A stretch of 38,941 nt of DNA, taken from assembly GCA_027490055.1 (NCBI GenBank), contig JAIXYV010000017.1:1-38941 (forward strand), in the 5' to 3' direction. The stretch is from Bacteroidota bacterium. GTDB taxonomy: Bacteria > Bacteroidota > Bacteroidia > NS11-12g > UBA955. The position numbers and the translations under genes were made by a program. Positions 35,979-38,913 of the stretch are shown piece by piece (the first letter of the stretch is position 1; each line of letters opens with the position of its first letter). Under the pieces are notes generated by a model, which saw nothing but the letters and a program-made list of their open reading frames with translations, did not search any database and was not told where the DNA came from.

Positions 35979-37577
35979 ATGGCAAGTGGTAAATTATCCC
36001 CTAGACAGAAGATGATCAACATGATGTATCTCGTGTTGATCGCCCTACTGGCATTAAATATTTCGAATGAAATTTTGAAAGCGTTCCACCTGATGGAAGT
36101 ATCTTTCAATAAAGCAAACGAATCTTTAACAGCCAAGAATAAAGCCTTAATGGATGCCTTCCAGGCAGCTGCAGATGATCCTGCTAAAGCGGTGAGAGCA
36201 AAAAAATGGGCTGAAAAAGCAAAAGAAGTTCAAAAAATCTCGGATGATTTCTGCAAAGAAATCGGAAAGTACAAAGCGGATATCGAAAAAGCTGCAGGCG
36301 GTAGAAAAGAACCTGAGTCTCCAGCTGATAAAGGTAAAGTACTTGAAATGAGCAAAGGTGATGACATGGAAGGTCACAAACACTACTTAGGTACTGATGA
36401 TGCTAAGCCAGGTAAAGGCGACGACTTGAGAAAGTTAATCGACAATACCCGTGCTAAAATGCTAAAAGTATTAGAAGGTGTTAAAGACGAAAAAGCTGTT
36501 ATCGCTGCGTTCGAAAAGAATACTGCTTTCAGAGTAGAAGATTTCAAAGACGAAAATGGCGCAACCAAAACTTGGCAGAGAGACGTTTTAGGTCACTCAC
36601 CAGTTGCTGGTGTAATGGCGATGTTGACTAAAGTACAAGGTGACTGCAAATCTTTGGAAACTGATATCTTAACTAAATTATCAGAAAACATTGATGCTAC
36701 TGTTGCTAAGTTCGATAAAACAGCTGCCTTAATCATCGCTGAGTCTACCAACGTTATGTCTGGTTCTCAGTTCAAAGCTAAAGTGGCTCTGATGGCTTAC
36801 AACTCTACTGCTGCTACTAACATATTAGTAAACGGTGTTAAAGTTCCGGTTGTTGATGGTATCGGTGAATATACTGCTACTGCTTCTGGTGTAGGTTCTC
36901 ATAAAATTGAAGCTAAGATCGAAACTATCGACCCTAATACAGGTGGCCCGACTTTCGTATCTGCTGCTCCGGTAGAATGGACTTCATTCGTTGCAGGTGC
37001 TACTATCTCTGCTGATGCGATGAACGTTCTTTATGTTGGTCTTGATAACCCAATGTCTATCTCTGTTCCTGGTGTAACTCCAGCTAACGTGTTCCCTTCA
37101 GGTTCAGGCATCGCTCTGAAACCAAACGGTGCAGGTAAGTGGATTGCAACTGTAAGTGCTGGTACAAAAACTGGTACTATCACAGTAAACGCAAAAATGC
37201 CTGATGGAACTCAGAAACGTATGGGTGATCCAATGACCTTCAGAGTAAAATCAGTGCCAAAACCTGTTGCTCAGTTAGGTTCATTAACTTCTGGTACTTA
37301 CCAGAAAGGTGAAATCGCTCTGCAAAACACTTTATATGCTTACCTTGAGAATTTCGTATTCGAAGGTGTTAAGTTTACAGTAACTAAATACAGAGTTATC
37401 TTCATGCCTAAAAAAGGTTATATGGAAGAAGCTGCTGTAAGTGGTAACAGCGCTGCTGCTATCAAATCATTCGCTAACAAAGCTAAGACTGGTGACCTGA
37501 TCGTTATCGACGGTATCAGAGCAGTTGGTCCTGGTGGCGAAAAACCATTGAACCCGATCACATACACATTTAAATAA
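35979..37577 (+). CDS. gldM: GldM (PorM), motor shaft of type IX secretion
   Basis: A 532-aa protein anchored in the inner membrane by one TM helix (about residues 13-31, following SPRQKMINMMYLVLIALLALN) and extending through the periplasm as a dimeric shaft that transmits GldL rotation to the GldK/GldN ring. Arg9 in the N-terminal stretch matches the conserved Arg that faces the GldL glutamate. After a helical region (about 35-235) come three or four beta domains (about 240-532), including the C-terminal domain that contacts the ring (YKVI-like segment TVTKYRVIFMPKKG). The length is typical. It is preceded by an unusually strong ribosome-binding site; gldN begins 1 nt after its stop. Confidence 0.95.
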   Translation: MASGKLSPRQKMINMMYLVLIALLALNISNEILKAFHLMEVSFNKANESLTAKNKALMDAFQAAADDPAKAVRAKKWAEKAKEVQKISDDFCKEIGKYKADIEKAAGGRKEPESPADKGKVLEMSKGDDMEGHKHYLGTDDAKPGKGDDLRKLIDNTRAKMLKVLEGVKDEKAVIAAFEKNTAFRVEDFKDENGATKTWQRDVLGHSPVAGVMAMLTKVQGDCKSLETDILTKLSENIDATVAKFDKTAALIIAESTNVMSGSQFKAKVALMAYNSTAATNILVNGVKVPVVDGIGEYTATASGVGSHKIEAKIETIDPNTGGPTFVSAAPVEWTSFVAGATISADAMNVLYVGLDNPMSISVPGVTPANVFPSGSGIALKPNGAGKWIATVSAGTKTGTITVNAKMPDGTQKRMGDPMTFRVKSVPKPVAQLGSLTSGTYQKGEIALQNTLYAYLENFVFEGVKFTVTKYRVIFMPKKGYMEEAAVSGNSAAAIKSFANKAKTGDLIVIDGIRAVGPGGEKPLNPITYTFK

Positions 37578-37578
37578 T

Positions 37579-38415
37579 ATGAAAAGAATTCTCGTCATCT
37601 TAACCTTCTGTCTGGCTATTGGTGCCAATGCTCAGGTCAACTACGGAGATTTTATTACCAGTGGTGAACATACCAGCTATGTAAAAGTAGCAGTTCGTCA
37701 AAGACCGGTAGTAGCTTATCCATACCTGAGAGAGGCAGATGTTAAGTTTTCCAGACGTGTCATCAGATGTATCGACGTACGTCAGAAGATGAACAAACAA
37801 TTAGAATGGCCTCGTCAACCTCTTAACAGGTTGTTATACGAAGAAATGTCTAAAGGTAATATCATCCCTTACAAAACCGACTCTTTGTTGTCTTTCTACA
37901 ATACAGAAGACTTCACTAAGCGCGGTGGTCAGGAAATTATCGTATTCATCGCTACCGATCCTGATGATCCGACCATTGGTTACGATTCTACCTACTATGA
38001 GCCGTACAAATATGAAAATATTAAAAAGTACTGGGTTATGGAAGATTGGATCTTTGACTATAAGCACTCTGTGTTTAAGCCAAGAATCATCGCTGTTGCA
38101 CCTATCTTCAGACCATCTTACGGTGGTGCTACTGCGCCTGAACAACCATTGTGCTGGATTAAAATGGACGAAATTCGCGGCTTGTTAGCGAACACAGAAA
38201 TGTTCAATCGCTACAACGACGCTTCTCGTCTGAGTTTCGATGATTTCTTCCAGATGAGAATGTTCGATAGCTTCATCGTGTATGAATCTAACGTTTTCGA
38301 CAACTACGTTAATCAGTTCCAGGAATACGAAAATGACGCCGTTGGTGCATTGCTGAAAAGTGATGAAATCAAAAACGACCTGTTCATCTTCGAACACGAC
38401 CTGTGGCAGTTTTAA
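37579..38415 (+). CDS. gldN: GldN (PorN), periplasmic ring subunit of type IX secretion
   Basis: A 278-aa periplasmic protein that forms the outer ring with GldK. A signal peptide (MKRILVILTFCLAIGANAQ, cleaved after residue 18) precedes the family domain with VIRCIDVRQKMNKQLEWP, YWVMEDWIFDYKHSVFKPRI and MFNRYNDASRLSFDDFFQMRMF. Only one copy is present; some Flavobacterium species carry a gldN/gldO duplication. The start codon is 1 nt after the gldM stop, giving close coupling. A terminator follows, ending the operon. Confidence 0.95.
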   Translation: MKRILVILTFCLAIGANAQVNYGDFITSGEHTSYVKVAVRQRPVVAYPYLREADVKFSRRVIRCIDVRQKMNKQLEWPRQPLNRLLYEEMSKGNIIPYKTDSLLSFYNTEDFTKRGGQEIIVFIATDPDDPTIGYDSTYYEPYKYENIKKYWVMEDWIFDYKHSVFKPRIIAVAPIFRPSYGGATAPEQPLCWIKMDEIRGLLANTEMFNRYNDASRLSFDDFFQMRMFDSFIVYESNVFDNYVNQFQEYENDAVGALLKSDEIKNDLFIFEHDLWQF

Positions 38416-38435: not shown

Positions 38436-38462
38436 AACCCGGACTACAATCCGGGTTTTTTT
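38436..38462 (+). terminator. Intrinsic terminator of the gldKLMN operon
   Basis: Stem AACCCGG (38436-38442) / CCGGGTT (38451-38457), 8-nt loop, and T-run to 38462. Confidence 0.9.
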
Positions 38463-38472
38463 ATGCCCGATT

Positions 38473-38767
38473 AGGAAATAGGAATTAGGATATAGGATTT
38501 AGGGTTGCTGACGCTCACTATTTCCTTTCCCCTTCACCGCGGAGCGCAGCTCTTTTTGACCGTGAACCGCGGGACTTTTTGACCCCGTAGAGCAAAGCTC
38601 TCAACGGGGCAGGCTTTGGATTGCAAGTCCAACGGCTATAATTTGTGTATCGATGTTGGATGTTTGTCAGAAACCACAGCCATCCCAGCACTAATCCCAG
38701 CCATCCCAGTCTGCCCGCGCAGCGCCATTCCTTTCCCCTAAATCCTATTTCCTATCTCCTAATTCCT
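38473..38767. repeat. Inverted-repeat-bounded intergenic element of about 295 bp
   Basis: The two ends, 38473-38504 and 38736-38767, are inverted repeats of 32 nt with 28 identical positions. Each arm is built of 7-bp units of the type TAGGAAA/TAGGATT. Inside are TTCCTTTCCCCT in direct orientation (38522-38533 and 38728-38739), ACCGCGG twice (38536 and 38566), CTTTTTGACC twice, a hairpin CCCCGT-AGAGC / GCTCT-ACGGGG (38583-38609), and CAGCCATCCCAG twice, 21 nt apart (38677 and 38698). No ORF is convincing. It looks like a small non-coding mobile or palindromic repeat unit. Confidence 0.55.
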
Positions 38768-38830
38768 GAAAAAACCAGCAATATATACCTTCATTTTCCG
38801 TTATAATTATAGCATTAAATTATTCGTATT

Positions 38831-38884
38831 ATGAGACATTCTACACCTTCATTTTTTAGTTATTTTATAGATACGGGCACTTGA
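38831..38884 (+). CDS. Putative 17-aa Phe/Tyr-rich leader peptide of an attenuator
   Basis: ATG 38831 opens a 17-codon ORF encoding MRHSTPSFFSYFIDTGT and ending at TGA 38882. Three Phe codons (38852-38857, 38864-38866) and one Tyr codon (38861-38863) lie immediately upstream of the 5' arm of an intrinsic terminator (38869-38877), and the stop codon lies in the terminator loop. This is the architecture of ribosome-mediated attenuation: a ribosome held at Phe codons for lack of charged tRNA would cover the 5' arm and allow read-through. The regulated gene would lie beyond the window; aromatic amino-acid biosynthesis is the natural guess (inference). I see no good -7 box and no Shine-Dalgarno. 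Confidence 0.55.
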   Translation: MRHSTPSFFSYFIDTGT

Positions 38885-38913
38885 TCCACTCATGTAACCC
38901 GTATCTTTTTTTT
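38869..38913 (+). terminator. Intrinsic terminator overlapping the leader ORF
   Basis: Perfect 9-bp stem AGATACGGG (38869-38877) / CCCGTATCT (38898-38906), a 20-nt loop, and a run of eight T to 38913. It follows no ordinary gene, which supports a role as an attenuator. Confidence 0.8.

Follow-up and report, generated by a model that had tools for sequence, protein, structure and literature searches.

The gldN-gldM2 spacer in the source genome

The window, that is the whole stretch of 38,941 nucleotides analysed here, lies on contig C79 of the source genome (G000), and its last position, 38941, is also the end of this contig. Near this end the first copy of gldN is followed by a promoter-like block, a short open reading frame (ORF) and a hairpin around the stop codon of this ORF (Table 1), which together are called the leader. 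A terminator-like hairpin sits between the gld operon and the leader and separates them, and the relatives have a similar GC-rich hairpin with a T-run 3' of gldN. In the same spacer, inverted copies of a dispersed repeat flank about 230 bp. Elsewhere in the genome the repeat has at least a dozen additional matches and the intervening segment several, and the pair with its segment resembles a small mobile or REP-like element.

Table 1. Features near the end of the window, and the leader ORFs of the other nine genomes
Feature	Position	Strand	Basis or remark
gldN (first copy), T9SS ring subunit, upstream neighbour	37579..38415	+	TIGR03523 equivalog
Terminator-like hairpin ACCCGG..CCGGGT and T run after gldN	38438..38461	+	Read directly; similar in relatives
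Dispersed repeat AGGAAATAGGAATTAGGATATAGGATTTAGGG, inverted copies	38473-38504 and 38736-38767		Flank part of the gldN-gldM2 spacer
Promoter-like block GCAATA-N15-CGTTATAATTAT	38778..38810	+	Counterpart in all 10 gldM2 leaders
Leader ORF MRHSTPSFFSYFIDTGT, 17 codons	38831..38884	+	ATG at 38831, stop TGA at 38882-38884 (read from the window sequence); 17 codons in 9 of 10 gldM2 leaders, 18 in one
Hairpin around the ORF stop codon, 9-bp stem	38869..38906	+	AGATACGGG (38869-38877) pairs with CCCGTATCT (38898-38906) in the window sequence; fold z peak at stop; own-versus-swapped arm test
T8 run behind the hairpin, intrinsic-terminator feature, G000 only	38906..38913	+	The other nine leaders lack a run of six or more T immediately 3' of the hairpin
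Second small hairpin ATCAGT-TATTAAC-ACTGAT at contig end	38923..38941	+	18 nt of it also form the beginning of contig C111
Leader ORF, G013			MNNYAFTTNNLIELTGSG
Leader ORF, G003			MNIYTKLLSSKAFCNSA
Leader ORF, G009			MKNYLNFYIRLHLEQNE
Leader ORF, G014			MNNYINSCISVRIEQNE
Leader ORF, G004			MNFYYIPSTPKHLIQLE
Leader ORF, G015			MRKFTHLTYWQFVLKKE
Leader ORF, G007			MNCYYISIKTVCLIQLE
Leader ORF, G012			MNCYYISTKTVCFVQLE
Leader ORF, G006			MNCYHISTKSTCFIQLE

The ORF ends within the hairpin: its last codons double as the 5' arm, and its stop codon falls in the loop. With its nine base pairs and eight T the structure has the form of an intrinsic terminator, in which a G+C-containing stem is followed by a T-run. 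The 121-nt stretch around the ORF and hairpin gave a fold z of -2.8 against dinucleotide shuffles, and the 64 nt around the ORF stop gave -4.7. When terminators were defined by a stem of at least 8 bp and at least 6 T, this ORF was alone among the window's ORFs of 10-30 codons in having its stop inside a terminator loop, and 10 first-order shuffles of the whole sequence contained no such case. An earlier note on this DNA had described a 17-codon ORF running into a 9-bp stem with a T-run and its stop in the loop, and this description proved exact. A search of the end of the window with Rfam 15 gave no leader-family match to the leader, even at E<=5; the only matches obtained were sub-threshold chance ones located elsewhere.

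Identity of the downstream gene

C79 ends with 18 nt that recur without a mismatch as the first 18 nt of another contig, C111, which carries in order 172 nt of leader, a gene for a 529-aa GldM (NCBIfam equivalog TIGR03517, 294 bits against a cut-off of 180) and typA. On the basis of this end overlap and of synteny the two contigs are taken as adjacent, which makes gldM2, a gene of the type IX secretion motor, the gene downstream of the leader. The candidacy of typA as the immediate downstream gene was rejected because it comes after gldM2. Among relatives of the same genus gldN is followed by typA in G001, G002, G005 and G008, and elsewhere by second copies of both gldM and gldN. The hairpin at the contig junction also has a counterpart in the G003 leader (L109, near 1200-1216), TCGGT-TATTAAC-ACCGA, with a compensatory G-C for the A-T of G000.

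Of the 17 genomes of the genus examined, 10 have gldM2 through a tandem duplication of gldM (35979-38415 and L128:173-1759 in the source genome), which in relatives includes gldN. The source genome has gldM2 without a second gldN between it and typA.

Comparison of the ten gldM2 leaders

All ten gldM2 genes found in the genus are preceded by the leader with its promoter-like block, short ORF and hairpin. These ten leaders represent about six independent lineages of one genus, and the analysis was by sequence comparison throughout. The gldN-gldM2 spacer measures several hundred nucleotides in each, and its parts come in the same order: the GC-rich hairpin with T-run, the promoter-like block, 32-59 nt, the ATG, the short ORF, the hairpin, 187-324 nt and gldM2.

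The block upstream of the ORF reads RCAATA-N15/16-CGTT followed by an A/T stretch in 10/10 leaders and is regarded as promoter-like, with no sigma class assigned. The pattern was also considered as a marker of a larger gene set and was rejected, as its other matches were few and not far above control numbers. The ORF and hairpin were absent from every other match to the pattern that was looked at, and apparent matches in G000 and G011 fall within other, coding sequence and so are not leader copies. A DNA search of the relatives with the leader returned two chance matches, including one within a coding gene; no dispersed copies of the leader were found, and the unit of ORF and hairpin was seen only ahead of gldM2. 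A different upstream block, GCAATAAAT-N-CGTTTTAATTTTGCGTTTTGCAAT, is conserved just before the start of genes whose product begins with MATKKSNSFRNA (L214, L232, L234 and L237; FtsK-like by eye).

The start codon of each leader ORF was a matter of choice: in G013 another ATG lies upstream in the same frame, and in G009 and G014 an earlier ATG is present with a stop straight after it. Nucleotide identity of the ORFs between lineages is mostly 17-52%, near saturation, with the exceptions of G009 and G014 (71%) and of G004 with its clade (about 70%). Differences at codon positions 1, 2 and 3 among the four closest leaders number 28, 17 and 16; third positions are not in excess, and selection on the peptide is therefore not visible. 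A tyrosine at codon 4 is shared by eight leaders. These comparisons indicate that the frame and length of the ORF have been kept and that the peptide sequence has not.

The hairpin at the stop codon

When a 48-nt fold window was slid along the ten leaders, the lineage-mean z was positive early in the ORF (about +0.6) and fell to about -2.1 at its stop codon. As the leaders do not align, covariation was assessed by an arm-swap test, in which the segment preceding each genome's stop was folded against segments that follow the stop in genomes of other lineages, for comparison with the genome's own pair. Own arms pair better than swapped ones (lineage-averaged z -2.07). The other placements tested in the leader, among them each of the two arms with the start of the ORF, with that of gldM2 and with the regions between, gave nothing below z -0.84, and the hairpin at the stop codon is therefore the only leader pairing supported across lineages. 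The stem is strong in G000, G003, G004, G006 and G015, moderate in G007 and G012, and weak in G013 and G014; in G009 it is formed partly by the stop codon itself. Concealment of the gldM2 start by one of the arms was rejected, since the pairing of arm and start region was no better than with swapped partners.

The earlier note had seen no separate antiterminator, and among the placements tested in the ten leaders no conserved alternative partner was found. In the nascent RNA of G000, however, the 5' arm has a potential partner in the region just ahead of the ORF (-6.9 kcal/mol). This pairing, weak and not conserved, is a possible antiterminator of that genome; it can also form in G014 and could complicate the model given below. 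A run of at least six T directly behind the hairpin was found in none of the nine other leaders, and intrinsic termination is thus not the conserved function. Behind the hairpin an excess of C over G, as in Rho-type termination, is modest and missing from some leaders. What is conserved is the geometry of ORF and hairpin.

Phenylalanine and tyrosine codons

The leader had been proposed as an attenuator sensing phenylalanine or tyrosine, on account of the sequence FFSYF ahead of the terminator. The comparison speaks against this: the leaders hold only 1-4 Phe and Tyr codons each, FFSYF occurs in G000 alone, and the first gene downstream of 38941, gldM2, is neither an amino-acid nor an aminoacyl-tRNA gene. 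The conservation that the earlier note expected upstream of the orthologues was found for the frame and length of the ORF and for the hairpin, but not for the Phe/Tyr codons or the T-run. Of the findings that this note had named as refuting its proposal, a downstream gene without relation to amino acids is thus present, and a lack of ORF conservation applies in part, to the codons invoked. A conserved codon run, a matching gene, an exclusive antiterminator shared by the leaders and an Rfam leader family, by which amino-acid attenuators are recognised, were all missing. FFSYF is simply what the T-rich stretch TTTTTTAGTTATTTT happens to encode.

The phenylalanine pathway and PheS/PheT were rejected as regulated genes, pheS and pheT being on other contigs. 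Prephenate dehydratase was found in 3 of 117 relatives and in no genome searched of the genus or the family. This near-absence, together with the location of pheS and pheT, leaves a role of phenylalanine without support from the context. The pheT gene is split over two contig ends (L125 and L126, that is C2 and C31 of G000) that appear to overlap by about 130 profile positions, possibly an artefact of assembly or of strain variants.

A proposed translation-coupled switch and its alternatives

The reading that we favour, and to which we give about an even chance, is that the leader is a translation-coupled switch for gldM2 with a stop-codon hairpin controlled by the ribosome, which in G000 takes the form of a minimal attenuator. 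It starts from what is seen in the sequence, namely the position, length and frame of the ORF, the pairing of the hairpin, the downstream gene and the lack of a conserved alternative partner, and from these we infer promoter use, translation, termination and the direction of control. A promoter after gldN would start an RNA with about 280 nt before gldM2, the 17-codon ORF would be translated at once, and its end codons would make the 5' arm of a hairpin with the stop in its loop or top. A ribosome near or at the stop would cover this arm and keep the hairpin open, and without a ribosome the hairpin would form. As there is no conserved alternative partner, a ribosome on the ORF is the simplest agent for opening and closing the hairpin. 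In G000 the hairpin and T8 would end transcription, and gldM2 would be transcribed only if ribosome and polymerase keep step, so that the signal sensed would be the state of translation or of coupling and not one amino acid. The earlier suggestion that a ribosome covering the 5' arm blocks the terminator therefore agrees with the interlocked ORF and hairpin and with the lack of a conserved antiterminator, but the T-run that makes the hairpin a terminator is present in 1/10 leaders. In the other nine genomes the hairpin would have to act otherwise, through pausing, stability, ribosome release or Rho.

Such a difference can also be explained by a post-transcriptional role, in which the stop-codon hairpin would shield the 5' end or modulate the release of ribosomes and the stability of the gldM2 mRNA, the T-run of G000 being incidental. 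We hold this to be possible though rather unlikely: the hairpin is common to the leaders and the T-run is not, and a long stretch (187-324 nt) lies between the hairpin and gldM2, but in G000 the stem and T8 have the full form of an intrinsic terminator, and neither arm shows conserved pairing with the gldM2 start region. That the leader is an independent small transcript, coding for a small protein or acting as a dual-function RNA, with its own terminator and merely beside gldM2, is improbable. In G000 the unit is a closed one, with promoter-like block, ORF and terminator; the peptide, however, is not conserved, the terminator is missing in the other nine leaders, the unit occurs only before gldM2, and no housekeeping-type TAnnTTTG promoter lies between the ORF and gldM2 in 9/10 leaders.

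A true Phe/Tyr attenuator confined to the G000 lineage as a derived state would fit the position of FFSYF right before the terminator and a genus that seems to lack the usual route to phenylalanine. It is nevertheless highly improbable given the missing codons in the other leaders, the identity of the gene as gldM2 and the T-richness of TTTTTTAGTTATTTT, which is enough to give Phe and Tyr. A chance overlap of a terminator with a spurious ORF, short ORFs being common in A+T-rich DNA, is scarcely credible when the arrangement is absent from all 10 shuffles of the window and ORF length and hairpin position are common to ten genomes.

Returning to the translation-coupled switch, a more specific form of it, which we put forward with somewhat less assurance, is that the ORF is selected for its length and position only and that its ribosome opens the hairpin at its own stop, coupling gldM2 to the state of translation. 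If this is true, the leader would be an attenuator in Bacteroidota, where few leader-peptide switches have been described, with neither regulatory codons nor an antiterminator. Codons that drift while the length and the stop-codon hairpin are kept would separate the sensing of translation from the sensing of an amino acid. Such a leader also makes the coupling of ribosome and polymerase in this phylum open to a simple test by genetics.

Comparison with known systems

In Porphyromonas gingivalis T9SS genes are under a non-housekeeping (ECF) sigma factor through PorXY-SigP (PMC4800418). T9SS genes are thus concerned in both cases, but a leader ORF does not figure in the part of that account drawn on here (PMC4800418), and the promoter-like block carries no evidence of being a SigP site. 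A broad survey of premature terminators leaves Bacteroidetes unmentioned in its main text (PMC2965389), and no leader ORF ahead of a T9SS gene was described in the open literature searched, which is not proof of absence.

In the same phylum tetQ of Bacteroides is a translational attenuator (PMC5418344). The gldM2 leader shares with ermC, cat and tetQ a leader ORF interlocked with a hairpin, and it differs from them in that the gldM2 start region has no conserved pairing and no resistance gene is present. With the ribosome-mediated his, trp and phe attenuators it has in common a short leader ORF and, in G000, a terminator before the gene, but it lacks their conserved regulatory codons, conserved antiterminator and amino-acid gene.

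In the pyrBI operon of E. coli the leader ORF runs into the terminator without an antiterminator, and the coupled ribosome itself blocks the terminator; the signal at pyrL is UTP-sensitive pausing. The leader of gldM2 differs in having a shorter ORF than pyrL, the T9SS gene gldM2 downstream and a T-run in only one of ten genomes. As in pyrBI, however, the ORF of G000 extends into a terminator without an antiterminator, apart from the non-conserved pairing described above, and by this analogy the G000 leader resembles pyrBI more than the his, trp and phe attenuators.
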